64,000 nucleotides of DNA from Pseudomonas taetrolens (lineage in GTDB: Bacteria > Pseudomonadota > Gammaproteobacteria > Pseudomonadales > Pseudomonadaceae). A program made the position numbers and the translations under genes. This document shows positions 29,943 to 64,000 of the stretch, piece by piece (within the stretch, counting starts at the first letter, position 1; each line of letters begins with the position of its first letter). The DNA lies in NCBI RefSeq assembly GCF_900475285.1, contig NZ_LS483370.1, positions 1,750,001-1,814,000 on the forward strand, in the 5' to 3' direction. The notes under the pieces were generated by a model. It saw nothing but the letters and a program-made list of their open reading frames with translations. It was not told where the DNA came from and did not search any database.

Positions 29943-29948
29943 TCGCTC

Positions 29949-30704: not shown

Positions 30705-30718
30705 GGGGGTTCTCCTTT

Positions 30719-32739
<2,021 letters not shown>

Positions 32740-32746
32740 TTATTTG

Positions 32747-32932: not shown

Positions 32933-33020
32933 TAAATTAGAATCATGAAACGCCGCTGTCCTTCTGGATCGAAAGGCGGGCGTGTCATTCACTCAGCACA
33001 TCAATTGAGAGGAACAGAAA

Positions 33021-34073
33021 ATGCCGGTGAGCGACTGCGAGTTGACTCAGATGTTTGAGCACGTGTTGAAATTGTCGAAAGTCGACGCGACCCAAAGCGT
33101 TGCCGTGTTGAAAAGTCATTACTCGGACCCGCGTACCGTGCGGGCGGCCATGGATGCGGCACAGCGGCTCGGGGCCAAGGTGTATGCCGTCGAGTTGCCG
33201 TCGTTCAATCACCCGATGGCGATGGGCAATGACATGACGGCTTACTGTGGGGATACCGCGCTGACGGGCAATATTGCGGCGCAGCGGGCGCTGGAAGCGG
33301 CAGATCTGGTGGTCGATACCATGATGTTGTTGCACTCCCCGGAACAGGAACAGATTCTCAAGACCGGTACCCGTATCTTGTTGGCTGTCGAACCACCGGA
33401 AGTGCTGGCGCGGATGCTGCCAACGCTGGCGGACAAAGAGCGCGTGATGGCCGCTGAAAAACTCCTCAAACAAGCGCGCTCCATTCATGTCAGATCAAAG
33501 GCGGGCAGTGATTTCAGGGCTGCGCTGGGGCAGTATCCCGCAGTGACCGAATATGGTTTTGCCGATGAACCGGGGCGCTGGGATCACTGGCCCAGCGGTT
33601 TTCTGTTCAGCTGGCCGAATGAAGAAACCGCGCAAGGAGTGCTGGTGATCGATGTGGGGGACATCGTGCTGCCGTTCAAAAATTATTCGCGAGAGCAGAT
33701 CACCCTGGAAATCGACAAGGGCTTCATCACATCGATTCACGGCGGTTTCGAGGCCGAATACCTGCGCGATTACCTGAAGTATTTCAATGACCCCGAGGTC
33801 TACGGTATCTCTCACATCGGTTGGGGGTTGCAGCCGCGTGCACAGTGGACCGCGATGGGCTTGCATGACAAAAACGACGGCATGTGCATGGATGCGCGGG
33901 CGTTTTACGGCAACTTCCTATTTTCGACCGGGCCCAATACCGAGGTGGGAGGGACACGTAAAACGCCATGCCATCTGGATATCCCGTTGCGCCACTGCGA
34001 TATCTACCTCGATGACCAGGCGGTGGTGGCCGCAGGCGTAGTCGTGGCCCCGCAAGGTTCTATTGCTTCGTGA
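33021..34073 (+). CDS. nicX: 2,5-dihydroxypyridine 5,6-dioxygenase
   Basis: Fe(II) extradiol-type ring-opening dioxygenase that turns 2,5-dihydroxypyridine into N-formylmaleamate; 350 residues. The metal ligands reported for NicX (His265, His318, Asp320) are present here at exactly the same positions, in ISHIGWG and PCHLDIPL. Divergent from nicC, followed by nicR. Preceded by GAGAGGAA and a palindromic operator. Confidence 0.95.
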   Translation: MPVSDCELTQMFEHVLKLSKVDATQSVAVLKSHYSDPRTVRAAMDAAQRLGAKVYAVELPSFNHPMAMGNDMTAYCGDTALTGNIAAQRALEAADLVVDTMMLLHSPEQEQILKTGTRILLAVEPPEVLARMLPTLADKERVMAAEKLLKQARSIHVRSKAGSDFRAALGQYPAVTEYGFADEPGRWDHWPSGFLFSWPNEETAQGVLVIDVGDIVLPFKNYSREQITLEIDKGFITSIHGGFEAEYLRDYLKYFNDPEVYGISHIGWGLQPRAQWTAMGLHDKNDGMCMDARAFYGNFLFSTGPNTEVGGTRKTPCHLDIPLRHCDIYLDDQAVVAAGVVVAPQGSIAS

Positions 34074-34232
34074 GACACCGCGCAGCCCGGGTGCCTTGTT
34101 TTACTCGGCCCCGGCTGCGAACGCAGACCTTTTGCGTACGAGGTTTACCTTGATGGCATTCTGGCAGTTAAGGTAGTTGCCGTTTACACCTGGAATTGCC
34201 CTTTTAACCCTTTTTGATCGATAGAGGCTGCA

Positions 34233-34697
34233 GTGTCGGATACGACAGACCAAACCCCGGACAGTACCGTTGCATATGACTTTTCCGAGCAGGTGGGCCA
34301 TTTGTTGCGCAAGGCTTACCAGCGCAATATGGCCATTTTTCAGCAGAACATCGGGGACTCGCAATTGACTGCCGTCCAGTTCATCACCCTGTGCGCGGTG
34401 CATGATCACGGTCCCAGTTCCTTGAGTGAATTGATCAAGGCCACGGCCGTTGATCAGGCAACGATTCGCGGCATTGTTGAGCGCTTGCAAGGACGTGGCC
34501 TGATTACGCTGGAACCCGCCGCCCATGACCGGCGCAAGGTCATCGTAAGCCTGACTGAAGCCGGTCAGCAGTTGGTGCGTGATACCCAGCCCAGCGCCGC
34601 CCGGGTGAGTGAGCTGACGTTAGGCAAGCTCAATCCTGCCGAGCGCGTGGCGATACTTTATTTGCTGCGCAAAATGGTGGATGAAAGCAGCGACTGA
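34233..34697 (+). CDS. nicR: MarR-family repressor of the nic genes
   Basis: 154-residue winged-helix regulator. The recognition helix region is SSLSELIKATAVDQATIRGIVERLQ (by parts, about 68-92), followed by the wing with the D-R-R-K motif (AAHDRRKVIVSLT). In P. putida the equivalent gene represses nicX and nicCDEF and responds to 6-hydroxynicotinate. The start is GTG at 34233 after GAGGCT. Lies in the expected place between nicX and nicA. Confidence 0.88.
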   Translation: MSDTTDQTPDSTVAYDFSEQVGHLLRKAYQRNMAIFQQNIGDSQLTAVQFITLCAVHDHGPSSLSELIKATAVDQATIRGIVERLQGRGLITLEPAAHDRRKVIVSLTEAGQQLVRDTQPSAARVSELTLGKLNPAERVAILYLLRKMVDESSD

Positions 34698-34738
34698 GTT
34701 TTCTTGCAGGCCTTGGCATTATTCTTGCTCCTTTTTGG

Positions 34739-34901
34739 TTAAGTAGTCACTTCATCAAAAAAAGGGTGCCAGAGGTAACGCCGAGCGCTGGATAGATTTT
34801 TGTCCTTTAACGCCTGCACCTTTTACGTGCACTGCGCTTGCGTGCCCACGCTTGACCTGCGCGGCGACTTGTTTTGCCCTTTTCATGAAGTGATTACTTA
34901 A
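34739..34901. promoter_or_regulatory. Inverted pair of 17-base operators upstream of nicA
   Basis: TTAAGTAGTCACTTCAT (34739-34755) and ATGAAGTGATTACTTAA (34885-34901) are inverted copies differing by one base pair. Each is itself a dyad AAGT-N4-ACTT. They sit 130 bases apart in the 254-base gap between nicR and nicA, a spacing that would allow looping. A TetR-family protein (the nicS product here) is the likely ligand; the gap holds no gene. Confidence 0.7.
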
Positions 34902-34951
34902 TAAGATCCGCTTTAAAACAGTGCGGACGATGCCACCTGGGGAAGCGGGAC

Positions 34952-35440
34952 ATGAGTGATCAAACGCTGGCACCGACTACGACGGTAACACTGCAGGTGA
35001 ACGGGCAGGGCATAGAGGTCACTGCAATGGCTGATACGCCGTTGCTGTTGATTCTGCGTAACGATTTACAGCTTAACGGCCCCAAATACGGGTGCGGCCT
35101 GGGTGAATGCGGTGCGTGTACCGTGATCATTGACGGAGTGGCTGCCCGATCTTGTGTGTTTCCGCTGGCCGGGGCTGAGGGGCGTGAAATCACCACCCTC
35201 GAAGGCCTTGGTACGCGGGCTGCCCCGCACCTTGTGCAGCAGGCGTTCATTGATGAGCAGGCGGCGCAATGCGGCTACTGCATGAACGGAATGATCATGA
35301 CTGCCAAGGCTTTGCTCGACCGTAACCCGCACCCCAGCGAGGCGCAGGTACGAAACGAGTTGTCTGCCAACCTTTGCCGCTGTGGCACCCATGTCGAAAT
35401 TATTCGTGCGGTCATGCTTGCCGCTTGCCGAAAGCCTTGA
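34952..35440 (+). CDS. nicA: Nicotinate dehydrogenase small FeS subunit
   Basis: Two-[2Fe-2S] subunit of the nicotinate hydroxylase, 162 residues. The plant-ferredoxin-type cluster ligands are in CGLGECGAC (about 48-56) with a further Cys, and the second cluster ligands are CGYC (about 109) and CRCG (about 145). Passes electrons from the molybdenum centre of NicB to its cytochrome domains. Immediately upstream of nicB. Confidence 0.95.
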   Translation: MSDQTLAPTTTVTLQVNGQGIEVTAMADTPLLLILRNDLQLNGPKYGCGLGECGACTVIIDGVAARSCVFPLAGAEGREITTLEGLGTRAAPHLVQQAFIDEQAAQCGYCMNGMIMTAKALLDRNPHPSEAQVRNELSANLCRCGTHVEIIRAVMLAACRKP

Positions 35441-35454
35441 ACGGATTGATGACT

Positions 35455-38400
35455 ATGTCCCTTACCACGCTCACCCGTGATCAGTTGCTGGCCAAGTCCG
35501 GCGTTTTGTTGGTGGTTGATGAGATTCAGCCACCCCCCGGGCTGGTGCCCAAAGGCGGGGTCCCGGTGTTCAAACCCAAGGAATTGGGGCTGTTTATTGC
35601 TGTGAACGATGATGGTCTGGTGTATGCATTTAACGGTCATGTGGATCTCGGGACCGGTATCAGAACCTCGTTAGCGCAAATCGTTGCGGAAGAACTGGAT
35701 TTGACCCTGGATCAGGTTTGCATGGTGCTGGGGGACACCGCCAGTGCGCCTAACCAGGGCGCCACCATTGCCAGTGCGACCATTCAGATCACGGCGATTC
35801 CTTTGCGCAATGCGGCGGCCGAAGCGCGGCGTTTCCTCCTGGCAAGGGCTGGTGCGCAGTTCGGTGTCGAGGTTCACACCCTGGTGATAGAGGATGGGGT
35901 GGTCAAGAGTGACGATGGCCGCCAGTTGACATTCGCTCAACTGGTCGAGGGTGAACACTTCGAGATCGGTATCGCCGGCGATGCTCCGCTCAAACGACCG
36001 GAAGATTACCAGCGGGTAGGCAAGGACTCGGCCCGGGTCGATATTCCTGGCAAAGCCACCGGCGAACTGACCTATGTGCACGATATGCGCGTACCGGGCA
36101 TGTTGCATGGCCGTGTCATTCGCCCGCCTTACGCTGGACTTGATAGCGGTGATTTTGTTGGCAATAGCCTGCTGCAGGTGGATGAGTCCTCGATTGCTCA
36201 CATCCCGGGCATCGTCAAGGTCGTGGTGATCCGCGACTTTGTGGGCGTGGTTGCGATGCGTGAAGAGCAGGCAGTAAAAGCCGCTCAAGCGCTGAAAGTC
36301 ACTTGGAAGGACTGGAATTTCAAGCTGCCGGACATGAACGATGTCGAGCAGGCAATCCGTGCCAACCCGCGGGTCCAGAGGGTCGTGCTGGACAAGGGGA
36401 ATGTGGAACAGGCGCTGGAGCAGGCCAGCGAGCAGATGAACCGTACTTATCTGTGGCCCTATCAAATCCATGGCTCCATTGGTCCGTCCTGTGGCCTGGC
36501 GGATTATCAGGGCGACCACATACGTGTGTGGTCCGGTACGCAAAACCCGCATTTATTGCGCGCTGACCTGGCTTGGTTGCTGGAGTATCCCGAAGAGCGC
36601 ATTGAAGTGATCCGCATGGAGGCTGCGGGTTGCTATGGGCGCAATTGTGCCGATGACGTGTGCGCGGATGCACTGTTGCTGTCCCGTGCCGTGGGGGTTG
36701 CGGTAAGGGTGCAGCTGACCCGTGAGCAGGAGCATGTCTGGGAGCCCAAAGGCTCGGCACAATTGATGGAAGTGAGCGGCGGGCTCAATGCCGATGGCGC
36801 GGTGGCGGGCTATGACTTTCAGACCAGCTATCCGTCCAATGGCGCGCCGACCCTGGCCCTGTTGCTGACAGGGCGGGTGGAGCCGGTGGCGGCAATGTTC
36901 GAGATGGGAGATCGCACCTCGATCCCGCCGTACGATTTCGAACACATGCGCGTAACCATCAATGACATGGCGCCCATCGTTCGGGCTTCATGGATGCGGG
37001 GTGTCTCTGCACTGCCCAATACCTTTGCGCATGAGTCGTATATTGATGAATTGGCTTTTGCCGCGAAAGTCGATCCGGTCGAGTATCGCTTGCGTTATCT
37101 GAATGACGAGCGCGCTTCGGAGTTGGTGCGGGCCACTGCGGCCCGTGCGCAATGGGTGGCGCGCACCGAGCCCATGCAGATACCTGAGCAGGATAATGTG
37201 CTGCGTGGCCGTGGTTTCGCCTATGCCCGTTATATCCACAGCAAGTTTCCGGGCTTCGGTGCCGCATGGGCGGCATGGGTGGCGGATGTTGCGGTTGATA
37301 AACTCAGTGGCGAGGTGTCGGTGACACGCGTCGTGATCGGGCATGACGCGGGGATGATGATCAATCCGGCAGGCGTGAAGCATCAGATCCATGGCAATGT
37401 GATCCAGGCTACCAGCCGTGTGCTCAAGGAGCGGGTGACGTTCGAAGAGTCGACGGTGGCCAGCAAGGAGTGGGGTGCTTATCCCATCCTGACGTTCAAG
37501 CAGGTGCCGAAAATCGACGTGCTGATGATGCCGCGTCAGCACGAGCCACCCATGGGGGCCGGCGAGTCGGCGGGTGTGCCGAGTGCGGCAGCCATTGCCA
37601 ACGCAATCTACGATGCCACCGGCATCCGCTTCAGGGAGTTGCCGATTACTCCGGAGCGGGTACTGGCTGCACTCAAACAATCGCCAAACGAAGCGGGTGT
37701 GACTCCCGAGCCTGACGAGGCGCCGAAGCCCAGGCGCTCGAAGTGGTTGTTTGGGTCACTGTTGGCCGGGTTCGGCGCGTTGGCGGGCATTGCTGTCACG
37801 GCGTTGCCCTGGCGCGCAGAGATTGCCCCTATCACGCCTCCTTTGGCGGGCACCTGGTCTGCGGCGACGCTCGAACGTGGTCGATTATTGGCGGCGGTGG
37901 GCGATTGCGCCGTCTGCCATACCGCCCCGGGCGGCGTGACCAACGCGGGGGGGTTGGCGATGCAGACCCCTTTTGGCAAGTTGTACAGCACCAACATCAC
38001 GCCTGACCCGGAAACCGGCATCGGCAAGTGGTCCTACACGGCGTTCGAGCGCGCCATGCGCGAGGGCATAAGCCGCGACGGTAAGCATTTGTACCCGGCA
38101 TTCCCTTACACCGCCTTCAGGAACATTGATGATGCCGACATGCAGGCGTTGTATGCCTACCTGATGTCTCAGGCGCCGGTCTCCCAGCCGGCCCAAAACA
38201 ACGAGATGCAGTTCCCTTTCAATAAGCGACCGTTGATGGCCGGCTGGAATGCACTGTTCCTGCGTCAAGGTGAAATCAAGCCGCAACCGCAACGCAGTCC
38301 GCAATGGAATCGAGGTTCGTATCTGGTCAATGGCCTGGGGCACTGCGCGGCGTGCCACTCGCCGCGGAATCTGATGGGGGCGGAAAAGGGAGGTCAGTCA

Positions 38401-39030
38401 TTTTTGGCCGGCGGCATGGTCGATGGCTGGGAGGCGCCGGCACTCAACGGTTTGTCCAAAGCCCCGACACCCTGGACTGAAGACCAATTGTTTACCTACC
38501 TCAGTACGGGCTACTCCGACGCTCATGGCGTGGCGGCGGGGCCTATGGGGCCGGTGGTCAGCGAGCTGGCAAAGCTGCCCGAATCTGACCGGCGTGCAAT
38601 GGCGGTGTATCTCGCCTCACTCAAGGGCGAGGCTGCGGCCGAGTCCGCCGCAACCCTGCAGGCCAGCGAGCAGGCGAGTGCATCCACGGTTTCATTGGGC
38701 AATGGCCGGCGTGTTTTCGAGGGCGCTTGTCAGGGCTGTCACGCCGATGGCCTGGGCCCAGAACTGTTCGGCGTGAGTCCATCGCTGGCGAGCAATAGCA
38801 ATGTCCACAGTGCACTGCCCGACAACTTGATAAAAGTCATTTTGCAGGGCATTACGACCCCGGCGACGGCAGACCTGGGCTACATGCCCGGATTCAAGGA
38901 CAGCTTGTCGGATCGGCAAATCAGCGAATTGGCGGCTTATTTACGCAACCGCTTTGCCCCGGCGGAACCTGCCTGGCAGGGCTTGCAGCAACGGGTTGTG
39001 CACTTGCGCGCCAACCCTGGAACTCATTGA
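35455..39030 (+). CDS. nicB: Nicotinate dehydrogenase large subunit: molybdopterin domain plus three cytochrome c motifs
   Basis: Hydroxylates nicotinate to 6-hydroxynicotinate; about 1,191 residues. Residues about 1-745 form an aldehyde-oxidase/IorB-like molybdopterin-cytosine-dinucleotide domain (GHVDLGTGIRTSL; late motif PPMGAGESAGVPSA with the catalytic Glu). A hydrophobic segment (about 762-785) precedes three haem c sites: CAVCH, CAACH and CQGCH. The haems suggest electrons go to the respiratory chain rather than NAD. I chose ATG 35455, 14 bases after the nicA stop; 35449 is too close to its ribosome site. It overlaps the convergent nicS by seven bases. Confidence 0.95.
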   Translation: MSLTTLTRDQLLAKSGVLLVVDEIQPPPGLVPKGGVPVFKPKELGLFIAVNDDGLVYAFNGHVDLGTGIRTSLAQIVAEELDLTLDQVCMVLGDTASAPNQGATIASATIQITAIPLRNAAAEARRFLLARAGAQFGVEVHTLVIEDGVVKSDDGRQLTFAQLVEGEHFEIGIAGDAPLKRPEDYQRVGKDSARVDIPGKATGELTYVHDMRVPGMLHGRVIRPPYAGLDSGDFVGNSLLQVDESSIAHIPGIVKVVVIRDFVGVVAMREEQAVKAAQALKVTWKDWNFKLPDMNDVEQAIRANPRVQRVVLDKGNVEQALEQASEQMNRTYLWPYQIHGSIGPSCGLADYQGDHIRVWSGTQNPHLLRADLAWLLEYPEERIEVIRMEAAGCYGRNCADDVCADALLLSRAVGVAVRVQLTREQEHVWEPKGSAQLMEVSGGLNADGAVAGYDFQTSYPSNGAPTLALLLTGRVEPVAAMFEMGDRTSIPPYDFEHMRVTINDMAPIVRASWMRGVSALPNTFAHESYIDELAFAAKVDPVEYRLRYLNDERASELVRATAARAQWVARTEPMQIPEQDNVLRGRGFAYARYIHSKFPGFGAAWAAWVADVAVDKLSGEVSVTRVVIGHDAGMMINPAGVKHQIHGNVIQATSRVLKERVTFEESTVASKEWGAYPILTFKQVPKIDVLMMPRQHEPPMGAGESAGVPSAAAIANAIYDATGIRFRELPITPERVLAALKQSPNEAGVTPEPDEAPKPRRSKWLFGSLLAGFGALAGIAVTALPWRAEIAPITPPLAGTWSAATLERGRLLAAVGDCAVCHTAPGGVTNAGGLAMQTPFGKLYSTNITPDPETGIGKWSYTAFERAMREGISRDGKHLYPAFPYTAFRNIDDADMQALYAYLMSQAPVSQPAQNNEMQFPFNKRPLMAGWNALFLRQGEIKPQPQRSPQWNRGSYLVNGLGHCAACHSPRNLMGAEKGGQSFLAGGMVDGWEAPALNGLSKAPTPWTEDQLFTYLSTGYSDAHGVAAGPMGPVVSELAKLPESDRRAMAVYLASLKGEAAAESAATLQASEQASASTVSLGNGRRVFEGACQGCHADGLGPELFGVSPSLASNSNVHSALPDNLIKVILQGITTPATADLGYMPGFKDSLSDRQISELAAYLRNRFAPAEPAWQGLQQRVVHLRANPGTH

Positions 39031-39719
39031 TGCTCGGTGGTGGCCGGCAGCGTCATGACTCCGCGAACCACCTGATCGCTGATAAAGGTCAGCCAGTCTT
39101 GTCGCTGGTCAGGATGGGCAAGGTCCTGGCCGAGAAATGAGGTGAGGGTGTGCAGGTTCGAGTTATAGAAGTAGCACAGCGAAGCGATCATCAAGTAAAC
39201 GTGATTGGTGTCGACGTCCTGGCGAAAAATACCCTGTTGCTGGCCGGCCTCGATGATCGGTCGGATCACGCCTACGGTGGTCGTGGACAGGCGTCCAAGC
39301 TCGCGGGATTGCTGGGCATGCTTGCCTTTGTGCAGGTTCTCGATCGTCAGGATGGCCACGAACTCAGGGTGGTGCACGTAGTAGTTCCAGAAAAAGGCTA
39401 CCTGTTCGCGCAAGGCCTCGATTGGTTTGGACAGATCGGGGCGCAGGGTGCTTTCGGCTTGGTTGAAGGCATCGTAAATGTGCTCAAGCACATGGACGAA
39501 CAGGTTCTCCTTGCTGGAGAAGTAGTAATAGATCATCCGGTCGTTGGATTCGGCTTCTTTGGATATTTGCTCGATCCGTCCGCCGGCATAACCGTTGCGG
39601 GCGAATACCGCCACTGCCGCTTTGAGAATGCGAGCTTTGGTTTGATCGGCTTGATGAGCTCTGATCCCGGTTTTCTTGTTCAAGCGTATGTCCTTCATGC
39701 TGACCTGACCCAGGGCCAT
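39024..39719 (-). CDS. nicS: TetR-family regulator of nicotinate uptake/hydroxylation
   Basis: 231-residue TetR repressor. The N-terminal HTH is seen as ARILKAAVAVFARNGYAGG...IEQISKEAESNDRMIYYYFSSKENLF (in parts, about 27-75), followed by a ligand-binding helical domain. In P. putida a TetR protein at the nic locus represses nicAB and the transport genes; the position next to nicB supports the same role. An internal ATG at 39698 is an alternative start. Converges on nicB with a seven-base overlap. Confidence 0.8.
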   Translation of the reverse strand: MALGQVSMKDIRLNKKTGIRAHQADQTKARILKAAVAVFARNGYAGGRIEQISKEAESNDRMIYYYFSSKENLFVHVLEHIYDAFNQAESTLRPDLSKPIEALREQVAFFWNYYVHHPEFVAILTIENLHKGKHAQQSRELGRLSTTTVGVIRPIIEAGQQQGIFRQDVDTNHVYLMIASLCYFYNSNLHTLTSFLGQDLAHPDQRQDWLTFISDQVVRGVMTLPATTEHQ

Positions 39720-53539: not shown

Positions 53540-55363
53540 TCAGCCAGTGTGGTGACTCTCGGCAAGGCCGTAGACGGAAGTGTCGATGTCTTCGAAGCGC
53601 GCCTTTAACTGCAGCGCCAGATACAGCGAATAATGCCGTGACTGATGCAGGTTGCCACCGTGGAACCAGAGGTTTTCCTGCTGCGTTGGCTTCCACATGT
53701 TCCGCAGTTCGCCCTCGTAGGGGCCTGGATCATTCGTGGTTCCGGAACCTAAGCCCCAACAGCGGCCGACCTTGTCAGCTACTTCCTGGGAAATCAGCTT
53801 CGCTGCCCAACCATTCATTGAGCCATAGCCCGTGGCATAGACGATCAAGTCTGCCGGGAGCCGGCTGCCATCGTTGAGTACGACGGCATCTGCTTCGATG
53901 CGCTCGACACCCAGGCCAGGCGCGCTTTTGAGTTTGATCGTGCCATTCGCGATCAGTTCTGAGGCACCGACGTCGATGTAGTAACCAGAGCCACGACGCA
54001 CGTATTTCATGAAAAGGCCAGAGTCGTCGTCACCGAAGTCGAGCATGAAGCCGGCTTTGGACAGGCGCTCGTAGAAGTCCTTGTCACGCTCCTTGATCAT
54101 GTCAAAGACTGGTTGGTGAAAGCTGGGCATCACCTTGTAGGGGATCGAGGCGAACAGCATGTCAGCCTTGTCCGTGGTCAAACCCGTCTCGAGGGCGTCT
54201 TCTGAGTAGAGCCCGCCGAAGACGAGATCCATTAAGCTGTCGGAGCGCACGATGTGGGTGCTCGAGCGTTGCACCATGGTCACCTCGGCGCCGTTCTCCA
54301 CCAAATCAGCGCAGATATCGTGAGCCGAATTGTTCGCTCCGATTACCACCGCGCGCTTGCCACTCCATGCATCTCCGCCGGGATGACGACTGGAATGATG
54401 CTGTTGGCCATTGAAAACCTCGGCCCCCGGGTAAGTAGGGATATTGGGCACGCCGGACATACCGGTGGCGAGGATCAATTGCGTAGGTTGTAAGGTGATG
54501 CGCTCGCCATCGCGCTGTACTTCAACTCTCCAGGTGCCACTGTGATTGTCAAAGCTGGCGCTCACGCATTCTGTGCGCGGCCAGTAATTGAGTTCCATGA
54601 TTTTGGTGTACATTTCCAGCCAGTCGCCAATCTGGTCTTTTGGTGTAAAGACTGGCCAGTGATCGGGGAAGGGCAGGTAAGGCATATGGTCATACCAGAC
54701 GGGGTCGTGCAGACACAGCGACTTGTAGCGGCCCCGCCACTGATCGCCAGGACGCTCAGCCTTGTCGACGATCAGGGTTGGAACGCCCATTCGCTTGAGC
54801 CGCGCGGCGAGCCCCAGCCCCCCTTGACCGCCGCCCACGATCAGGCAATAGGGTTGGGTGGTAATACCCAGCGAAGCCTCTTCATCGCGTCGGCGCTCCA
54901 GCCAGTTGCGCTTGTCAGCGTGGGCGTGACCATGACTCGCACCCATTGGGCGACGGCGGCCGCTGGGTTCTTCAAACCCTTTGAGTTCGCGCATGCTCGT
55001 CAGCAGCGTCCAGCACAGGCCTTCCTTGAGACGCACGTAACCTTTAGCCCGCGCCGCTTCGGTTTCCAGACTGATCCAGCCTTCGAGCACACCGTTATTC
55101 AGCGTTGCTTCACCTTCTACTTTCCACTTTTCAGGGCGAGTCTGGTCGAGGCGTGTTTCCAGCATCTCCCGGATGGCAGGCTTGTTTTCCAGGGTCACTA
55201 AGTTCCAGCTGAAAAGCAGCAGGTCACGCCAGTAACACTCTTCGGCAAATAGTTCGAGTGCACCATCCAGATCACGTTGGACGAGACGTTCGTTGAGGTT
55301 TTCGACCCAAGCCGCGAGCTGATCAGTTGGCGCTTGCAGAGGTGGTTTGATAGCGATGTTCAT
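53540..55363 (-). CDS. Flavin monooxygenase with N-terminal NTF2-like domain
   Basis: 607 residues. Residues about 1-165 look like an NTF2/SnoaL-type domain (NERLVQRDLDGALELFAEE; WKVEGEATLNNGVLEGW by parts). After about 190 comes a class B flavoprotein monooxygenase with an FAD motif GGGQGGLGLA, the FMO-like fingerprint FNGQQHHSSRHPGG, an NADPH motif VIGANNSAHDI and the ATGYGS motif. Likely inserts oxygen (Baeyer-Villiger or N/S-oxygenation); the substrate is unknown. I chose ATG 55363 after GGAGAAG; the frame is open to 55714 but has no start there. It has its own sigma54 promoter and a divergent sigma54 activator. Confidence 0.85.
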   Translation of the reverse strand: MNIAIKPPLQAPTDQLAAWVENLNERLVQRDLDGALELFAEECYWRDLLLFSWNLVTLENKPAIREMLETRLDQTRPEKWKVEGEATLNNGVLEGWISLETEAARAKGYVRLKEGLCWTLLTSMRELKGFEEPSGRRRPMGASHGHAHADKRNWLERRRDEEASLGITTQPYCLIVGGGQGGLGLAARLKRMGVPTLIVDKAERPGDQWRGRYKSLCLHDPVWYDHMPYLPFPDHWPVFTPKDQIGDWLEMYTKIMELNYWPRTECVSASFDNHSGTWRVEVQRDGERITLQPTQLILATGMSGVPNIPTYPGAEVFNGQQHHSSRHPGGDAWSGKRAVVIGANNSAHDICADLVENGAEVTMVQRSSTHIVRSDSLMDLVFGGLYSEDALETGLTTDKADMLFASIPYKVMPSFHQPVFDMIKERDKDFYERLSKAGFMLDFGDDDSGLFMKYVRRGSGYYIDVGASELIANGTIKLKSAPGLGVERIEADAVVLNDGSRLPADLIVYATGYGSMNGWAAKLISQEVADKVGRCWGLGSGTTNDPGPYEGELRNMWKPTQQENLWFHGGNLHQSRHYSLYLALQLKARFEDIDTSVYGLAESHHTG

Positions 55364-55408
55364 GGGGCTTCTCCCGTTCTTGTTGTTTTTGTAACAACTT
55401 ACCCTTGA

Positions 55409-55424
55409 GCAAGGTGCGGGCCAT
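55409..55424 (-). promoter_or_regulatory. Sigma54 (-24/-12) promoter of the monooxygenase gene
   Basis: Read on the minus strand: TGGCCCGCACCTTGCT, that is TGGCnCG-N4-TTGCT with the GG and GC dinucleotides exactly 10 bases apart, one mismatch from consensus. The transcript would begin near 55397, 35 bases before the start codon. Confidence 0.85.
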
Positions 55425-55495
55425 CTTTGCGAAAGCCCCGTTGCAGAGCCGTAGCTGCGGTATTGCTGCGGTACTGCCGAGGCTTTGAGCCGAAA

Positions 55496-55537
55496 CTCTG
55501 TCACGAATCTGAGAAGGGGGAATGACAGAGTGTCACG
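55496..55537. promoter_or_regulatory. Upstream activator palindrome for the sigma54 activator
   Basis: CTCTGTCA (55496-55503) and TGACAGAG (55523-55530) form an exact inverted repeat, with TGTCACG repeated at 55499 and 55531. It lies about 75-115 bases upstream of the -24 element, where enhancer-binding proteins usually sit, and also just before the activator gene, so self-regulation is possible. Confidence 0.65.
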
Positions 55538-55619
55538 CGGTGTTGAGAGCGCTCGTTGCAGTCTTTTCATATAAGCTGCGAACAGACCCGTGTCCTGATC
55601 GTAGCGGAGAACAAGAACA

Positions 55620-57515
55620 ATGAAGCCGGCCTTGATCAACGCCCATGCACAGCAAGTGCTGCAAGCCGTGCAGGGCACTATTGGCAACCACAACCCTATA
55701 GCGGACCTGGCCATTACCCGATCCTGGCGTCGGTGCCTCGATCAGTATCAGCTCGATCCGGCCAGCCGCCGTTCGCCTAACGTGGTTGAACAACCACGCT
55801 TGCAGGATCACCGTGCGCCACTGGAACACATGATTACTGTGGCGCATTGGCAAATGAGCAGTTTGCACCAACAGCTCGGGCGTGACGGCCACGTGGTGCT
55901 CCTCACCGATGCGCGCGGTGTTGCGATCGACAGTGTGTTCAATGAATCCGAGCGAGCCGAGTTCCAGCGTTCCGGGCTGTGGCTTGGCTCGGTATGGAGC
56001 GAAGATTACGAGGGAACCAATGGTGTCGGTACCTGCCTGGTCGAACGGCAGCATGTAACCATCCGTCGTGATGAGCATTTCCGGGGCAAACACGTTGGCT
56101 TGACCTGTTCTGCGAGCCCGGTATTTGATGCGGGCGGAGAGTTGCTTGCCGTGCTGAACCTCTCTTCTGTGCGGGAGGAGCAAAGTCTTCAGCAGCACTT
56201 CAAAGCTATGGCGTTGACTCAACTATCAGCCAATTTGATCGAGAGCTGTTTTTTCTTGGGGCATGATCCGCAACGATATTTGCTGCGCTTCCACCCTGAG
56301 GCAGGCTTCGTTGGACTACTGGGTGAAGGCCTGCTCAGTTTTGACGAGAGTGCCCGTATTTGCTCAGTCAACCATGCTGCGCTGGAGCTGTTGGGGCTCA
56401 GCCGTGGCGACGTGGTCGGGCAAGCGTTGACGACGTTTTTGGAAACGCCTATTGACCATGTGCTGAGTCAAGGCAGCGAACATCCGAGTGTCTGTTGGCC
56501 AATACGGCTGGTTGACGGACGTTTGCTCTATGGGCAGCTGCGAGAGCCTATACGCCGGACGCCTCTAGCCACGCCTGCCTCTTCCGAAATCAACGATGTG
56601 CGTGTGTGCCTGGAAGACCCGCGTTTGCAACGAGGCTTTGCGCGCGCGCTGCGTGTGTTGGAGCGTGACGTACCAGTGTTTTTACAAGGGGAGACCGGTA
56701 CCGGTAAAGAAGCTTTTGCAGCGGCACTGCATCGCGCCAGCACACGCGCGAGCCAGCCCTTTGTCGCGATCAATTGCGCGGCCATTCCAGAAACGCTGAT
56801 CGAAAGCGAGCTGTTTGGTTATCGCGGAGGCAGTTTCACCGGCGCACGCAAGGACGGGATGATAGGTAAGCTGGAGCAGGCCCATGGCGGCATTCTGTTC
56901 CTCGATGAAATCGCCGATATGCCACTGGCTTTACAGACTCGCCTGCTGCGTGTGCTGGAGGAGCGGCAGGTCGTACCGCTCGGCGGCGCGACGGCGACTC
57001 CGCTCGACGTACGTCTCATCAGTGCCAGTAACCAGGATCTTCACACCTGTGTAGCCGAAGGGCGCTTTCGCGAGGATCTTTTCTATCGAGTTGCTGGTTT
57101 TGCCGTACAACTCCCGCCGCTTCGCGAACGATCAGACAAGGGCCGTCTGATCGACCTTCTGCTGCGTGAAGAGGCTAAAGATGAAAGGGTCCGGCTGGAG
57201 GCGGGTGTTAGAGATCGCTTGTTGACGCATCCTTGGCCGGGAAATGTCCGGCAGCTGCGTACGTGTCTGCGCACACTGGTAGCGTTGGCGTTGGAAGGGC
57301 GTGTCACGCTAGACGACTTGGCAGAGTTGCTGCCGACAACACCCGAGGCAGTCGCGCTGACCGAAAACCCGCTTGGCGTATCCGAACGGCAAACGCTGCT
57401 TTCATTGATTGAGGCAGAACACTGGCATATCGCCCATGTTGCCGAGCGCCTCGGGATCAGCCGCAACACGCTGTATCGCAAACTGCGCCATCACGGCATT
57501 TCCCGACCTGGCTGA
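55620..57515 (+). CDS. Sigma54-dependent activator, AcoR-like (GAF-AAA+-Fis)
   Basis: 631 residues. The N-terminal sensory region (about 60-200) has GAF features (GVAIDSVFNESE; GVGTCLVERQHVTIRRDEHF by parts) and a following PAS-like stretch. The AAA+ domain has Walker A GETGTGKEAF (about 361), a GSFTGA version of the GAFTGA loop and Walker B GGILFLDEIAD. The C-terminal Fis HTH is HVAERLGISRNTLYRKLRHHG. It binds DNA and activates sigma54 polymerase; the -24/-12 promoter of the divergent monooxygenase is its clear target. The inducer is probably the monooxygenase substrate (inference). Confidence 0.92.
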   Translation: MKPALINAHAQQVLQAVQGTIGNHNPIADLAITRSWRRCLDQYQLDPASRRSPNVVEQPRLQDHRAPLEHMITVAHWQMSSLHQQLGRDGHVVLLTDARGVAIDSVFNESERAEFQRSGLWLGSVWSEDYEGTNGVGTCLVERQHVTIRRDEHFRGKHVGLTCSASPVFDAGGELLAVLNLSSVREEQSLQQHFKAMALTQLSANLIESCFFLGHDPQRYLLRFHPEAGFVGLLGEGLLSFDESARICSVNHAALELLGLSRGDVVGQALTTFLETPIDHVLSQGSEHPSVCWPIRLVDGRLLYGQLREPIRRTPLATPASSEINDVRVCLEDPRLQRGFARALRVLERDVPVFLQGETGTGKEAFAAALHRASTRASQPFVAINCAAIPETLIESELFGYRGGSFTGARKDGMIGKLEQAHGGILFLDEIADMPLALQTRLLRVLEERQVVPLGGATATPLDVRLISASNQDLHTCVAEGRFREDLFYRVAGFAVQLPPLRERSDKGRLIDLLLREEAKDERVRLEAGVRDRLLTHPWPGNVRQLRTCLRTLVALALEGRVTLDDLAELLPTTPEAVALTENPLGVSERQTLLSLIEAEHWHIAHVAERLGISRNTLYRKLRHHGISRPG

Positions 57516-58789: not shown

Positions 58790-59518
58790 TTACTGGATTT
58801 GGCGTTCTCGCTGCTCTAAATACTCATCAAGTTGTGAGGCAAGGTATTCTCGTGCTTTTGTGGTGTGGACATCAGAAAGCTCGCCAGCCCTTTTCGAGTC
58901 ACCATCCGCAATCGCCTTGGCGATTGCCTCATGCTCGTCCCAGATTGACTGACGCTGAGAAGCAGAAGATTGCAGCACTGTTCCCATCGCCCGACGCAGG
59001 TGCACCCAATAGACTTGGGCACTCTCGGCAATTAGCGGATTTCCCGAAGCTGCGTAAATGTCGTGATGGAAGGCGACATCAGCGTCAACCATTGCTTTGA
59101 GATCTTTCCCTTGGGCAGCGAGCCGGCCATTTTCAATGATCATGGGATCCATCTGGTGACGTCTTTCAGCTGCCATTTTTGCCGCTAAATTATCCAGCGC
59201 TCCCCTTATCAGATAAAGGTTGCTGATAGAGGTAACGGTCAATGGTGTCACCAATACCCCTTTACCTGGGGCGTCTTGAACCAACCCGTCCTTTTTTAAC
59301 AGACGAATGGCTTGGAGGACGGGGGATCGAGAAACATGCATTTGTTCCGCAATCTCTTCTTGAGTGAATCGAACACCGGGGGCCATGGTCCCGTCACTAA
59401 TCGCGTCTAGAAGAGCTTTGTAGACTTCATCAACGTAGTCGGGGCGCGCTTGAATTCTCTGCAGCTTCGTTGTCATGACGTTCAGGGGTGCCTTCGTTGG
59501 TTTGATTGCGATGGTCAT
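58790..59518 (-). CDS. GntR-family regulator with FCD domain
   Basis: 242-residue FadR-subfamily repressor. Winged helix at about 25-90 (APGVRFTQEEIAEQMHVSRSPVLQAIR by parts) and an FCD ligand domain whose metal ligands are visible as Asp and His in VDADVAFHHDI, His in WDEHEAI and His in LSDVHTTKA. Divergent from the reductoisomerase gene. The CTGTATACAG palindromes in front of that gene and of the Rieske gene have the form bound by FCD regulators such as VanR, so it very likely controls both. I chose ATG 59518; the frame is open to 59728 without a good start. Confidence 0.9.
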   Translation of the reverse strand: MTIAIKPTKAPLNVMTTKLQRIQARPDYVDEVYKALLDAISDGTMAPGVRFTQEEIAEQMHVSRSPVLQAIRLLKKDGLVQDAPGKGVLVTPLTVTSISNLYLIRGALDNLAAKMAAERRHQMDPMIIENGRLAAQGKDLKAMVDADVAFHHDIYAASGNPLIAESAQVYWVHLRRAMGTVLQSSASQRQSIWDEHEAIAKAIADGDSKRAGELSDVHTTKAREYLASQLDEYLEQRERQIQ

Positions 59519-59590
59519 TGTCCATGTTCTCCAAAATGATTCCAACGGGGTGGCTTGACAATCTTGGTGTCCGAGCCAAGAATGAATTAT

Positions 59591-59600
59591 CTGTATACAG
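59591..59600. promoter_or_regulatory. GntR operator 1 (CTGTATACAG)
   Basis: A perfect 10-base dyad between the divergent GntR and reductoisomerase starts, 42 bases before the latter. It is followed by a weaker half-repeat GTATGTAGAGTATAG. The same 10 bases occur before the Rieske gene. Confidence 0.8.
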
Positions 59601-59641
59601 AACACGGTATGTAGAGTATAGAATTCATAAGGGGAATACCA

Positions 59642-60658
59642 ATGAAAGTGTTCTACGACAAAGATACTGATCTGGCCTTGCTGGAAAGCCGACGGGTAGC
59701 TGTCATCGGCTATGGCTCGCAGGGGCATGCTCAGGCGCTGAACTTACGCGACAGTGGAATCGACGTCGTTGTCGGGTTAAGAGCAGGTGGAGCTTCCTGG
59801 ACAAAGGCCGCAGCATCTGGTCTGCCTGTCATGGAAATAGGTGAGGCGGTAAGTGGTGCGGATCTGGTTGTCATGCTGATTCCAGACGAATCGATTGCAG
59901 AGGTTTATACCAATGATGTGGAGCCAGCCATCCGCAAGGGCGCGGCACTGGTCTTCGCCCATGGCTTCAACGTTCACTATGGTCAGGTCACGCCTCGCAG
60001 TGATCTCGATGTGTTCATGGTTGCCCCTAAAGCACCCGGTCATACCGTACGCTCGACCTTCGCGGCAGGTGGTGGAGTGCCAGCATTGATCGCCATTTCC
60101 CAGAATGTCTCTGATCTCGCAAAGGAACTGGCATTGTCGTATGCCTCGGCCATCGGTTGCGGAAAAGCAGGCATTATTGAGACGGATTTTCGAGAAGAGA
60201 CAGAGACCGATCTTTTTGGTGAGCAAGTCGTATTGTGTGGAGGTGCTGTAGAGCTGATCAAGGGAGGTTTTGAGGTATTGGTGGAGGCTGGTTACTCGCC
60301 TGAGCTTGCCTATTTCGAATGTCTGCATGAGCTAAAACTGATTGTTGATCTGCTCTATGAAGGCGGTATTTCTAACATGAACTACAGCATTTCCAATAAT
60401 GCTGAGTTTGGCGAATATGTCTCCGGACCGAAGATTGTTACCGCTGAAACCAAGCAGGCCATGCGTGAGGTTCTCGCCTTCATCCAGGACGGCTCGTACG
60501 CCAAGCAATTCATTCTCGAAAGCAAGGCAGGAAATTCGCTACTCACCGCGCGCAGAAACCAACTAAAACGCCACCCAATCGAAACTGTTGGTGAGCAGTT
60601 GCGGGCAATGATGCCGTGGATTAAGGCATCCGCTTTAGTGGACAAAGTACATAACTAA
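59642..60658 (+). CDS. ilvC: Ketol-acid reductoisomerase, accessory copy (class I)
   Basis: 338-residue NADPH enzyme of isoleucine/valine synthesis, with the normal class I length. Motifs: [14 protein letters not shown] (dinucleotide fold, about 22), the GLRAGGASW specificity loop, [11 protein letters not shown], the Mg-binding [10 protein letters not shown] and [16 protein letters not shown], all catalytic acids kept. It differs widely from the usual Pseudomonas IlvC in the N-domain (for example [17 protein letters not shown]), and it sits without ilvB or ilvN in a catabolic-looking cluster. It is therefore probably a second copy with a special task. Directly preceded by the GntR operator. 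Confidence 0.92.
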
Positions 60659-60722
60659 CTGATTGATGAGGAAATAAGTAACCCCGAGAGCAAAGCTGAT
60701 AGCATTATCGCACCCATAATAT

Positions 60723-60732
60723 CTGTATACAG
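60723..60732. promoter_or_regulatory. GntR operator 2 (CTGTATACAG)
   Basis: The same perfect dyad as operator 1, in the 122-base gap between the reductoisomerase and Rieske genes, 58 bases before the Rieske start. It implies that the Rieske gene has its own regulated promoter. Confidence 0.8.
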
Positions 60733-60780
60733 AGCTCCGTAGTCTGAGCTCTAACGCAAAATAAGAACGGAGACATGGTC

Positions 60781-62325
60781 ATGACCGAGAAATTAGAGCA
60801 GCACGAAGCCAAACAAACGAGCGGTGCCGGTACACCCATTGCCAAGAAACTGATCGCCTATGGTGGGTACCACACCAACAACGTTCCGGGTCATGATCCT
60901 GAATTGACTGAAACTGGCCCTGGTACTCCGATGGGAGAGTATCTGCGCCGCTTCTGGCATCCGGTATGTATGGCGCTAGAGCTGACAGATACCCCTCGCT
61001 TCCTGAAAATCATGGGTGAAGAGTTAGTTGCGTTCCGGGATGGCAGTGGCCAGATCGGTCTTTTGCATGCCCATTGCTGCCATCGCGGGGCGTCATTGGA
61101 ATATGGCGCTATCCAAGAGCGCGGTATTAAGTGTTGCTACCACGGAATGGTGTTTGACGTCGACGGAGCCTGCTTGCACGTGCCTTTCCCCGCAGGTGAG
61201 GAGAAAGAGGCCGAAAAATATGCCTGCTCAATTCGACAAGGTGCGTACAAAGCGTTCGAGCGGCATGGCCTGGTCTTCGCGTACATGGGGCCTCCAGATG
61301 AGGAGCCACCGTTCCCTGAGTGGGAGGAAAACTTCACTGTCGCCGAGGGTGATGAGTTGGTTCCGTATAGCAACTTCCAGCATTGCAACTGGATGCAGGT
61401 TCAGGATAACGCTGCAGACAATTTCCACCCCACCGCCTTACACTCGGCCAAAAACGTGGTGAACAAGAACTTCCAGGGCACAACTTTTGATGAGGTCGGC
61501 GCAGCCTCTATGGAAGTCGCGCCGGACATGCAATTCATTTCTGTGCACCAAGGGCGAAGCCTTGCCTGTGCCGGCGCACGTCGAGTAAACGACGACAAGA
61601 TGTTCCTGCGCATCCAGCATCAGGTACTGCCCAATCTGAGTTTGCACGCGTACACCTCCGAAGATGGTTCGGCGAAAAAACTCTTCAGTCGCTTCCACAT
61701 TGTCCGGTGGACTGTTCCAGTCGACGACGAGAACAGCAAAATGATGGGCTGGCGTGTAATGGGGCCGGGTATCGATACGCGTGGCATTGGTGACAAGAGC
61801 ATGGTTGGCTACGAGACCATCGACTTCCTAGAAGGCCAAGTTGCCATGCGCAGACCAGAGCGTTTCGGTAAGTACAAGCTGGAAGATATTCCCCCAATTC
61901 CTGCGAACCATCGTGAGCGTGAGATCTATAAGGACGCCCAATACGCGCCTGGTGATTATGAGGCAATCATCTCCCAGCGACCTATCGCTGTGCACAAACT
62001 TGAAAATCCCACCAAGTTCGATGCGGGTGTTTATGCGTTCCGCAAAATGCTACGTGACGCTATTCGCGGAACCAATCCAGCAGCAAGTGCGCATGGTTTC
62101 GCAGAATGGTTGCGCTCAATGAACGGGGCACCCAATAGCTATTGCACAGGCAACGTTTTTGAAATGCCAATCGCTGGCACCGTAGAACAGGAGGTTGCCA
62201 ACCGTCGTCGACTGGCCAAAGAAACGGTGGTAATTCTTACCGAGGCGGATCAATTGAGGGGGCAAGACCGGGCCACATTCGTCACAGAACGACTAGAGCA
62301 ACTTGAGCAAAGCTTTAAAAAATAA
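60781..62325 (+). CDS. Rieske non-haem iron oxygenase, large subunit
   Basis: 514-residue ring-hydroxylating or O-demethylating oxygenase. The Rieske cluster ligands are in HCCHRGASLEYG (C-x-H) and KCCYHGMVFD (C-x2-H), about residues 99-125. The mononuclear iron site is in NAADNFHPTALHS (D-x2-H-x4-H, about 217-229). It is long for the family and resembles the phthalate 4,5-dioxygenase / demethylase (LigX-like) branch, which works with a PDR-type reductase and no small subunit. Such a reductase follows. The substrate is not readable. I chose ATG 60781, eight bases from GGAG; ATG 60775 is also possible. Confidence 0.92.
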   Translation: MTEKLEQHEAKQTSGAGTPIAKKLIAYGGYHTNNVPGHDPELTETGPGTPMGEYLRRFWHPVCMALELTDTPRFLKIMGEELVAFRDGSGQIGLLHAHCCHRGASLEYGAIQERGIKCCYHGMVFDVDGACLHVPFPAGEEKEAEKYACSIRQGAYKAFERHGLVFAYMGPPDEEPPFPEWEENFTVAEGDELVPYSNFQHCNWMQVQDNAADNFHPTALHSAKNVVNKNFQGTTFDEVGAASMEVAPDMQFISVHQGRSLACAGARRVNDDKMFLRIQHQVLPNLSLHAYTSEDGSAKKLFSRFHIVRWTVPVDDENSKMMGWRVMGPGIDTRGIGDKSMVGYETIDFLEGQVAMRRPERFGKYKLEDIPPIPANHREREIYKDAQYAPGDYEAIISQRPIAVHKLENPTKFDAGVYAFRKMLRDAIRGTNPAASAHGFAEWLRSMNGAPNSYCTGNVFEMPIAGTVEQEVANRRRLAKETVVILTEADQLRGQDRATFVTERLEQLEQSFKK

Positions 62326-62341
62326 CAAAAAGGCCCACATC

Positions 62342-62374
62342 AACTTCCGAGATGGGCTTTATCTCGGAAGTTTT
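62342..62374 (+). terminator. Strong intercistronic hairpin between Rieske oxygenase and reductase genes
   Basis: AACTTCCGAGAT-GGGCTTT-ATCTCGGAAGTT is a perfect 12-base-pair stem, followed by TT. The loop GGGCTTT can also pair with AAAGGCCC-like bases just upstream (62326-62336), so two structures exclude each other. Could be an attenuator or a stability element that lowers reductase output relative to oxygenase. Confidence 0.7.
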
Positions 62375-62396
62375 AAGCGCAATGCCGAGGTGAGGT

Positions 62397-63383
62397 ATGA
62401 ACGCAATAGTTGATAGCACTGCCGCAACGCATCTAGAACTGGTGGTCAAACAAATCAGGATGGAAGCGAACGGAGTAAACTCTTACGAGTTCGTCTCTGC
62501 GGACGGTTCCAATTTACCTCCATTCACTGCTGGCGCGCACATTGATGTTCACGTCGGTGGTGGCGTTATTCGTCAGTACTCGCTGTGCAACTCTCCTTCA
62601 GAGCGACATCGCTACATGATCGCCGTGTTGAAGGATCCAAATGGTCGCGGCGGATCTGCGGCTGTTCATGAAACCATCAAGGTTGGTGACCGGGTTCGTG
62701 TCAGCGTGCCCAGGAATAATTTCGAGTTGCATCCAGGATCAACCAAAGTCGTGCTGCTGGCTGGCGGCATTGGGGTGACGCCGATGAAGTCGATGGCGCA
62801 TCAACTGGAAGCACAAAACATTGAATACCAGATGTACTACTGCGCTAAAGGGCCTGAATACGCAGCGTTTCAAGCTGAGCTCGAGGGGTTGGCGAAATCT
62901 GGCAGCGTCAGTTTTCATTTCGATGGTGGCGATCCTGGCAATAAGCTGGACATCTCTTCGATCCTGAAAAATCCTAAGGGTGAATGCGATCTTTACTACT
63001 GTGGGCCTGGGGGCTTCATGCAGGCGTGTAAAGAAGCTTCAGAGCATTGGCCGAGCGGATCGGTGCACTTCGAGCATTTCAAGGCGCCGGTCAAGAAGGA
63101 AACTGAGGAGTGCCCGATTGTCGGGGGGTTCATTGCCGAGATCGCTAGCACCGGTGAGAAACTGGAAGTAGGGCCCAGCGAAAGCCTGGCAGAGGCTCTG
63201 AACAATGCCGGCTATTCCGTGGAAACGTCTTGCCAGTCGGGCTTGTGCGGGACATGCAAGGTGCGCTATCTGAAAGGAGTAGTCGATCATCAGGATTTCA
63301 TTCTTGATGACAGCGAGAGACCTGATTTTCTGACGTGCTGTGTATCTCGTGCCGCAGGCGGAACTCTGCTGCTGGATCTCTGA
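62397..63383 (+). CDS. Phthalate-dioxygenase-reductase-type (PDR/VanB) electron transfer protein
   Basis: 328-residue reductase that passes electrons from NADH to the Rieske oxygenase. FMN domain with RQYSLCNSP (about 62), nucleotide motif GGIGVTPMKSM (about 122), and a C-terminal plant-type [2Fe-2S] ferredoxin with ligands in CQSGLCGTCK and the later TCC (about 281-319). Ribosome site GAGGTGAGG. Clear functional partner of the oxygenase 72 bases upstream. Confidence 0.93.
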   Translation: MNAIVDSTAATHLELVVKQIRMEANGVNSYEFVSADGSNLPPFTAGAHIDVHVGGGVIRQYSLCNSPSERHRYMIAVLKDPNGRGGSAAVHETIKVGDRVRVSVPRNNFELHPGSTKVVLLAGGIGVTPMKSMAHQLEAQNIEYQMYYCAKGPEYAAFQAELEGLAKSGSVSFHFDGGDPGNKLDISSILKNPKGECDLYYCGPGGFMQACKEASEHWPSGSVHFEHFKAPVKKETEECPIVGGFIAEIASTGEKLEVGPSESLAEALNNAGYSVETSCQSGLCGTCKVRYLKGVVDHQDFILDDSERPDFLTCCVSRAAGGTLLLDL

Positions 63384-63557: not shown

Positions 63558-63818
63558 ATGAATGTGATCAAACTGGAAAGTTTTTTGGCCACGGTTGATT
63601 GCGGCACCGTCAGCGCTGCGGCGTTGAAGCTGAACATAGGCCAGCCTGCAGTGAGCAAGCATCTGAACTCACTCGAAGTTGACTTCGGTGTTGCGCTCTT
63701 CGATCGGTCATCCCGGAAAACGACGCTCAGCCCTGAGGGCATGAAAGTTTTGCATGTTGCGCGGTTGGTAGTTCATGCTATGAAGGCTCTGAGGGAGGAA
63801 CTTTCGGAGTGTGATTAA
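63558..63818 (+). pseudogene. LysR-type regulator fragment (DNA-binding domain only)
   Basis: 86 residues with an intact LysR winged helix (VIKLESFLATVDCGTVSAAA..., IGQPAVSKHLNSLEVDFG) and the start of the linker helix. It ends at TAA where a full protein has about 200 more residues of effector domain. It follows the reductase in the same direction. It is either a remnant or a free-standing DNA-binding domain; a remnant is more likely. Confidence 0.75.
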
Positions 63819-63882: not shown

Positions 63883-64000
63883 TCTGGATAATGTCATAAG
63901 TACTTACAGGCAGCCCGTAGTTGTGGCTACTTCATATGACGAATTTCACCAAGTAAGGTTGGTAGTTATAGCGGTCAACTAATTTCCTCACAATGATCAT

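Follow-up and report, generated by a model that had tools for sequence, protein, structure and literature searches.

A second ketol-acid reductoisomerase shares a predicted GntR regulon with a Rieske oxygenase in Pseudomonas taetrolens

Gene content of the locus

The window analysed here is a stretch of 64,000 nucleotides (G000, contig C1, positions 1750001-1814000) of the single-contig, 4.84-Mb genome of Pseudomonas taetrolens. Towards its end lies a compact set of genes encoding a GntR-family regulator, a second ketol-acid reductoisomerase (KARI), a Rieske non-heme iron oxygenase (RO) and a ferredoxin reductase, in which two identical palindromes precede the KARI and RO genes. Comparison with related loci supports the prediction, made by motif, that KARI and the RO/reductase pair form a GntR regulon. 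The four genes had been proposed in a preliminary description of this DNA, and domain matches confirm all of them (positions are those of the window):

58790-59518, minus strand: GntR-family regulator of the FCD subfamily (GntR 4.1e-16, FCD 2.2e-20), the relatives of which adjoin RO
59555-59583, plus strand: promoter-like pair of hexamers, TTGACA-17-AAGAAT, immediately before operator 1, a match to the consensus only
59591-59600, plus strand: proposed operator 1, CTGTATACAG, preceding the KARI gene
59642-60658, plus strand: second ketol-acid reductoisomerase, a class I KARI paralogue (KARI_N 3.1e-71, KARI_C 3.4e-59)
60723-60732, plus strand: proposed operator 2, CTGTATACAG, preceding the RO gene
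60775-62325, plus strand: RO (Rieske 5.2e-16; 38% over 503 columns to L119:11908-13371, the tert-butyl alcohol hydroxylase of Methylibium PM1 and the nearest relative of known function that was found)
62342-62372, plus strand: 11-bp inverted repeat, read by eye, between the RO and reductase genes
62397-63383, plus strand: ferredoxin reductase (FAD/NAD/2Fe-2S), presumed partner of RO (Fer2 4.2e-12, NAD_binding_1 1.4e-07)

The product of the KARI gene, with approximately 338 residues and both the KARI_N and KARI_C domains, has the architecture of class I KARI (IlvC) and passes the cut-off of the ilvC models. The start of the GntR gene was set at 59518 from aligned relatives; the longest open reading frame reaches 59728, but this start is unlikely because that frame overlaps the KARI gene. 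With the start at 59518, the intergenic region between the divergent GntR and KARI genes is 123 bp long and contains operator 1. The promoter-like hexamers are a weak signal, since the region contains 6 such matches where shuffled sequence has 4.2 on average. The 71-nt spacer between the RO and reductase genes (62326-62396) has a predicted fold of -23.9 kcal/mol (z -3.09; 2 of 200 shuffles were equally good), and its repeat may be an attenuator that sets the level of the reductase.

A palindrome associated with the GntR gene

The palindrome CTGTATACAG is exact at both proposed operators, as the preliminary description had it. With at most 1 mismatch allowed, the window contains 3 matches against 0.59 expected, a number reached by 1 of 100 shuffles. 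When the motif was extended by the flanks of relatives, only 2 matches, each with 1 mismatch, were found in the entire 4.84-Mb genome; these are the KARI and RO promoters, and the reversed control motif gave none. The extended motif was searched in 23 of the 37 genomes (P. taetrolens and 22 others). In the 22 other genomes, most of the listed matches fell in the RO locus, as judged by eye from contig and position, with some elsewhere; the total for the reversed control was 4.

A single scan of genome contigs with RO yielded 63 loci, in which the neighbours were identified by tblastn with the window genes. The sequence TGTATACA is present in exact form within 300 bp upstream of RO in 42 of the 63 loci, and in 48 when 1 mismatch is allowed, against a background elsewhere in the loci of 0.005 (exact) and 0.043 (1 mismatch) per 300 bp; a common form of the palindrome, from 13 selected sequences, is CTCTGTATACAGAGTTC. 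Where KARI is linked to RO, the core site with up to 1 mismatch also lies upstream of the KARI gene in 11 of 13 loci (8 exact), including 3 Alcaligenes loci with a site upstream of KARI and none upstream of RO. Counting a GntR gene as nearby when a relative was found within 6.5 kb of RO, we observed the palindrome (1 mismatch allowed) before RO or KARI in all 51 loci with a GntR gene and in none of the 12 without, although the associated p-value of 4e-13 overstates the independence of the loci, which are related. Judged from these sequences, the GntR-FCD gene and the palindrome at the KARI and RO promoters come and go together. The exact core site was absent from all 36 stretches around housekeeping KARI copies, which led us to reject GntR control of the housekeeping ilvC.

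Polynucleobacter-type loci were found both with and without the GntR gene and the palindrome. At the loci L026, L032, L034-L037, L039 and L058, all of this type, neither was found in the sequence available, and RO is kept at 75% identity.

Conservation of the neighbourhood and distribution of the second KARI

A search for the neighbourhood in other genomes had been set beforehand as a test, and the gene order proved to be conserved, with linked KARI genes in 5 genera. KARI adjoins RO in 13 of the 63 loci (Pseudomonas, 5; Cupriavidus, 3; Alcaligenes, 3; Methylibium, 1; Caballeronia calidae, 1), lying directly before RO in 12 of them and after the reductase gene in C. calidae; in one draft genome (L023), it is split over 2 frames. 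The 5 nearest relatives of RO, with 93-98% identity, are from Pseudomonas (L003, L004, L054 and L059) or genomes of the host genus. The distances of RO and of the linked KARI correlate (0.55), but co-inheritance is not shown thereby, because the distances of RO and the housekeeping KARI correlate as well (0.42).

The KARI gene of the locus had been described as a lone second copy, and this is borne out by the genome. Another KARI gene is located at C1:4002734-4003747 in an ordinary ilvIHC operon, behind ilvI- and ilvH-like genes for the large and small subunits of acetolactate synthase (by eye), whereas the second copy has no acetolactate synthase genes nearby and no other ilv gene was seen in its set. 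All 13 genomes with a linked KARI hold one more KARI, which in G006 is in pieces. Among the loci without a linked KARI, for which 23 of 50 genomes were checked, 22 of the 23 genomes have a single KARI. Decayed copies were found in 2 loci: Massilia psychrophila carries a complete KARI and, shortly before RO, a short C-terminal KARI relic with a stop, and P. agarici has a short N-terminal relic between 2 intact palindromes.

In 249 genomes of the host genus (RO match at E <=1e-150, KARI match at E <=1e-60), RO was present in 4 and a second KARI in 3, all of which carry RO; none of the 245 genomes without RO had a second KARI. Over 4548 bases, the fourth RO-bearing genome (G073) matches the P. 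agarici locus (L004) without a difference, and it carries the KARI relic of that species. No KARI was seen in one of the 249 genomes, which is 87% complete. A search of plasmids for KARI returned ordinary ilvC-like matches, the best at 64% among the 15 of 118 records listed.

Several other genes of the window were considered as members of the set and rejected. The preliminary description had offered the ICL/PEP-mutase family gene as a further step of the pathway, but none of the 63 loci contains a match to it above 90 bits, and that proposal was abandoned. The interval 53540-57515 contains genes for a flavin monooxygenase-like protein and a sigma-54 activator in divergent orientation; relatives of each were found in 1 of 63 loci (L049 for the monooxygenase, L046 for the activator, the latter at 38%). 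The monooxygenase relative (62%) lies near the RO locus of Hydrogenophaga sp. IBVHS2 (L049:14644-16434). Farther away, by eye, the window contains a cluster resembling those for nicotinate degradation (nic), with carrier and regulator genes (29307-39719), and large non-ribosomal peptide synthetase genes of the pyoverdine type (1-14315).

The linked KARIs as a group of paralogues

The first KARI tree comprised 13 linked (the window copy and 12 others) and 35 housekeeping proteins; the partial copies L093, L094, L107 and L118 and the split L023 were left out of the KARI trees, and the distant L095 entered the first tree but neither the second nor the residue counts. The first tree has 2 changes between linked and housekeeping labels, of which the starred branches force one, and 22% of the bootstrap trees have only one. 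Once the distant Rhodospirillaceae row had been dropped, a single branch (94/88, not starred) separated all 13 linked proteins from the rest in the second tree. The linked KARIs thus likely share a single origin, as far as the trees indicate. The other copies from genomes with a linked KARI (12 in the tree) group with the single copies of other genomes, and in the first tree no linked copy falls within the starred groups of housekeeping KARIs from Pseudomonas, Alcaligenes and Cupriavidus, a pattern other than that expected if each host's own ilvC had been copied. The existence of another ilvC agrees with the earlier view that the copy at the locus is not the housekeeping one.

The 34 housekeeping KARIs compared share 181 invariant columns, of which 140 are unchanged in all 13 linked proteins. 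The residues H107, K130, D190, E194, E226, E230 and S251, which we take to be the metal-binding and catalytic residues in the numbering of the P. aeruginosa KARI, are present in all 13. At positions 48, 156 and 331, linked and housekeeping KARIs have no residue in common: position 48, which belongs to the cofactor loop, carries K or R in all 34 housekeeping copies but in none of the 13 linked ones. At position 256, the 13 linked copies all have F, and 33 of 34 housekeeping copies have Y. A switch to NADH through the loss of K48 is unsupported, because the linked KARIs keep R47 (13 of 13) and S52 (12 of 13, Thr in one) and PMC5940873 places the 2'-phosphate contacts in comparable KARIs on the Arg and Ser of the loop.

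The comparison of the linked KARI with its nearest relative, that of L059, gave a dN/dS of 0.033 at a dS of 0.50, indicating that the gene is under purifying selection; dS was above 1.2 or undefined for the other linked pairs. The GC content of the gene is 52%, against 59% for the window, which weakly supports transfer because the own housekeeping KARI is also low (55%).

These data bear on two alternatives to a catabolic role of the second KARI. According to the first, KARI is a chance addition to the regulon without a part in the pathway. Its lack in 50 of 63 loci and its decay in 2 would suit such a passenger, but the low dN/dS, the palindrome of its own in 11 of 13 loci, the position before RO in 12 of 13 and the restriction of the second KARI to RO-bearing genomes of the host genus make this explanation very improbable. 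According to the second, which corresponds to the inhibitor-resistant copy of the preliminary description, the housekeeping IlvC is inhibited by a substrate or intermediate of the pathway (a 2-oxo, 2-hydroxy or metal-chelating acid), and a spare KARI, induced through the GntR switch, sustains the synthesis of valine, leucine and isoleucine. The retention of the active-site residues listed above in all 13 copies, as expected of an enzyme of branched-chain amino acids, the dispensability of KARI evident from its decay, the lack of any other ilv gene in the set and the group-specific residues at positions 48, 156, 331 and 256 are all compatible with this view. Conversely, these active-site positions show no change that could account for resistance, there is no known inhibitor, and the partner genes described below point to branched acids within the reach of KARI chemistry itself. 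We regard a spare KARI as unlikely, if worth keeping in mind.

Relatives of the Rieske oxygenase and its reductase

The best relatives of RO among solved structures are a putative phthalate 4,5-dioxygenase and 2 further Rieske chains (116-124 bits), and its best 120 listed relatives, 74-88% identical, carry only generic names where they are named at all. Among plasmid records, the best match after 3 Caballeronia orthologues is a Rieske protein of plasmid RPME01 of Methylibium petroleiphilum PM1 (38% over 503 columns), next to which a PDR/VanB-type reductase is encoded that is 51% identical to the reductase of the locus. In PMC4517660, Mpe_B0555 is given as tert-butyl alcohol hydroxylase and Mpe_B0554 as an iron-sulfur oxidoreductase, with genes for 2-hydroxyisobutyryl-CoA mutase in the same Mpe_B numbering range. 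By plasmid, pairing and neighbours, the PM1 genes found here fit Mpe_B0555/B0554. The latter are presumably MdpJ/MdpK; the Rieske enzyme MdpJ is reportedly a tertiary alcohol desaturase that acts on secondary alcohols, too. A tree of 16 Rieske proteins places the PM1 enzyme with the RO group (92/91, not starred), though its branches are few and long.

No 2-hydroxyisobutyryl-CoA mutase genes were seen near the locus. Distant relatives of this B12-dependent mutase (34-46%) were found in 10 of 37 genomes, the P. taetrolens genome not being among them, and their distribution showed no pattern, which led us to reject the mutase as an alternative to KARI in hosts without the latter.

Conserved partners beyond the window

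The gene set continues past base 64000. In the overlapping sequence L066, in which position x corresponds to window position 56000 + x - 1, it comprises 3 more genes, all beyond the window and therefore missing from the preliminary description:

L066 8840-10174, minus strand: MFS carrier, HpaX-related
L066 about 10269-11120, minus strand: class II aldolase/adducin protein of the PRK06208 family
L066 11225-12124, divergent from the aldolase-like gene: GcvA-like LysR gene

A short LysR-like frame within the window (63558-63818, approximately 86 codons) covers the DNA-binding part only and looks by eye like a truncated LysR gene. Partners were counted in the 46 of 63 loci with a length of at least 19 kb. 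The aldolase-like gene is present in 43 of these (69-98% identity), the LysR gene in 38 and an MFS gene at 40% identity or more in 28. At P. typographi L052:2395-7901, 2 copies of the aldolase-like/MFS gene pair adjoin the RO set.

Among solved structures, the aldolase-like protein is most closely related to NovR (196 bits), a fuculose-phosphate aldolase (189 bits) and TqaM (155 bits). Its matches to 3 pyruvic oxime dioxygenase chains reach 61-75 bits, so that this identity, and with it heterotrophic nitrification, was rejected. In PMC13111500, NovR and CloR are described as three-His iron oxygenases that catalyse the oxidative decarboxylation of a 2-oxo acid and then of a 2-hydroxy acid. The CHAH and NHG motifs, the metal-binding His motifs of the NovR/CloR type, are present in 43 of the 43 aldolase-like proteins.

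The aldolase-like gene of Alcaligenes sp. SORT26 (L024) is followed directly, on the same strand, by a gene for a TRAP binding protein. The best solved relative of this protein is 2hzk (named SmoM, 416 bits), which we take to be an alpha-keto acid binder, and the fourth is 7ug8, a ketoacid-binding protein (307 bits). This carrier bears on a further possibility, that only the reductase half of KARI was recruited, for a 2-oxo acid of the pathway. KARI-family enzymes also reduce ketopantoate, and isomerisation by KARI requires the metal-site residues. A keto-acid type of binding protein and the loss of K/R at position 48 in all 13 linked copies would agree with a simple reductase, but the metal-site residues, which a mere reductase need not keep, are retained in 13 of 13. 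PMC9359912 reports that the KARI-family enzyme BurG reduces hydroxypyruvate. All in all, we consider a reductase-only role improbable.

A candidate catabolic module for a branched acid

Our preferred interpretation, held tentatively and with something less than even confidence, is that the locus represents an inducible catabolic module that moves horizontally and serves to degrade a small branched acid, in which KARI acts on a branched hydroxy-oxo acid. In this way, an enzyme of the biosynthetic type may help to break down a branched acid. The catabolic interpretation is favoured because, of the relatives examined, the tert-butyl alcohol hydroxylase pair is the nearest to RO and its reductase, and because the set contains a conserved NovR/TqaM-like partner and carriers of organic-acid families. 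It retains the part of the preliminary description that placed KARI on a branched intermediate of a catabolic route and gives up the ICL/PEP-mutase step that had been attached to it.

In the proposed scheme, the GntR protein would repress KARI and the RO/reductase pair until an acid of the pathway binds to the FCD domain. The substrate, a small branched organic anion such as a 2-oxo or 2-hydroxy acid, would be taken up; the NovR/TqaM-like protein would oxidise the branched acid as an Fe(II) oxygenase, and the Rieske pair would hydroxylate a branched or tertiary-alcohol carbon. The branched 2-hydroxy-3-oxo or 2-oxo-3-hydroxy acid formed in this way could then be the substrate for the 1,2-alkyl shift and reduction that KARI usually performs. 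Because KARI is absent from many hosts, this step would be optional or unneeded there, or covered by the housekeeping IlvC.

A more specific version of the catabolic role, to which we give little credence, is that KARI serves as a B12-free debranching enzyme: following Rieske hydroxylation of a tertiary-alcohol acid, the 1,2-alkyl shift would turn a quaternary-carbon skeleton into a linear dihydroxy acid. By analogy, and with just as little assurance, KARI would then play the part of the cobalamin-dependent 2-hydroxyisobutyryl-CoA mutase encoded near the Methylibium pair. If true, a biosynthetic enzyme family would here be put to catabolic use, and quaternary carbons would be degraded by a new route.

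Several observations weigh against the module as proposed. It has no known substrate, and an identity of 38% in a divergent family cannot fix that of RO; the PM1 enzyme joins the group on long branches without a star. The best solved relative of RO is a putative phthalate 4,5-dioxygenase, and the HpaX-like carrier and NovR are linked to aromatic acids. KARI was not found in 50 of 63 loci (contig ends truncate some of them) and has degenerated in situ in 2, and RO can therefore persist without it. The B12-dependent mutase, which debranches in PM1, is no evident alternative in hosts without KARI: distant relatives occur in 3 of 14 KARI-bearing versus 7 of 23 KARI-less genomes. Finally, 2 origins of the linked KARI are possible, because the first tree needed 2 label changes.

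Comparison with known systems

In the open PMC literature, we found no description of a pairing of KARI/ilvC with a Rieske oxygenase and a GntR regulator, nor of a set of Rieske oxygenase, class II aldolase and GntR genes. The second KARI resembles class I KARI (IlvC; 1np3, 491.6 bits) in length, domains and active-site residues, but it is located outside an ilv operon and behind a palindrome tied to a GntR gene, groups apart and is changed at position 48 in 13 of 13 copies. The aldolase-like partner shares the class II aldolase fold with NovR/CloR and TqaM, and differs from them in adjoining a carrier, regulators and a Rieske oxygenase. Among the relatives examined, the RO (38%) and reductase (51%) came nearest to the tert-butyl alcohol hydroxylase pair of PM1; whereas the latter lies near genes of a B12-dependent mutase, the pair studied here is accompanied by GntR and LysR regulators, an aldolase-fold protein and, in some cases, KARI.

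KARI is commonly regarded as an enzyme of biosynthesis and an inhibitor target, and the one well-described departure that we encountered is BurG, presented in PMC9359912 as an NAD+-dependent, KARI-family cyclopropanol synthase. Like BurG, the second KARI would be a paralogue with a specialised role beside housekeeping copies. The BurG chains in the PDB match it with 161 bits compared with 491.6 bits for ordinary KARI, on which ground a BurG-type function was rejected. The hydroxylase that precedes BurG in the pathway is, according to the same paper, a putative 2-oxoglutarate-dependent dioxygenase, unlike the Rieske enzyme found here.

The locus thus yields a substrate hypothesis for a generically named group of Rieske oxygenases, and with 2 promoters, a single regulator and 6 or 7 genes, it is a compact system for deciding between a catabolic role of KARI and an induced by-pass of KARI inhibition. 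The module is of the Rieske catabolic type with an unexpected dedicated KARI, special-role KARI paralogues being already known from BurG.

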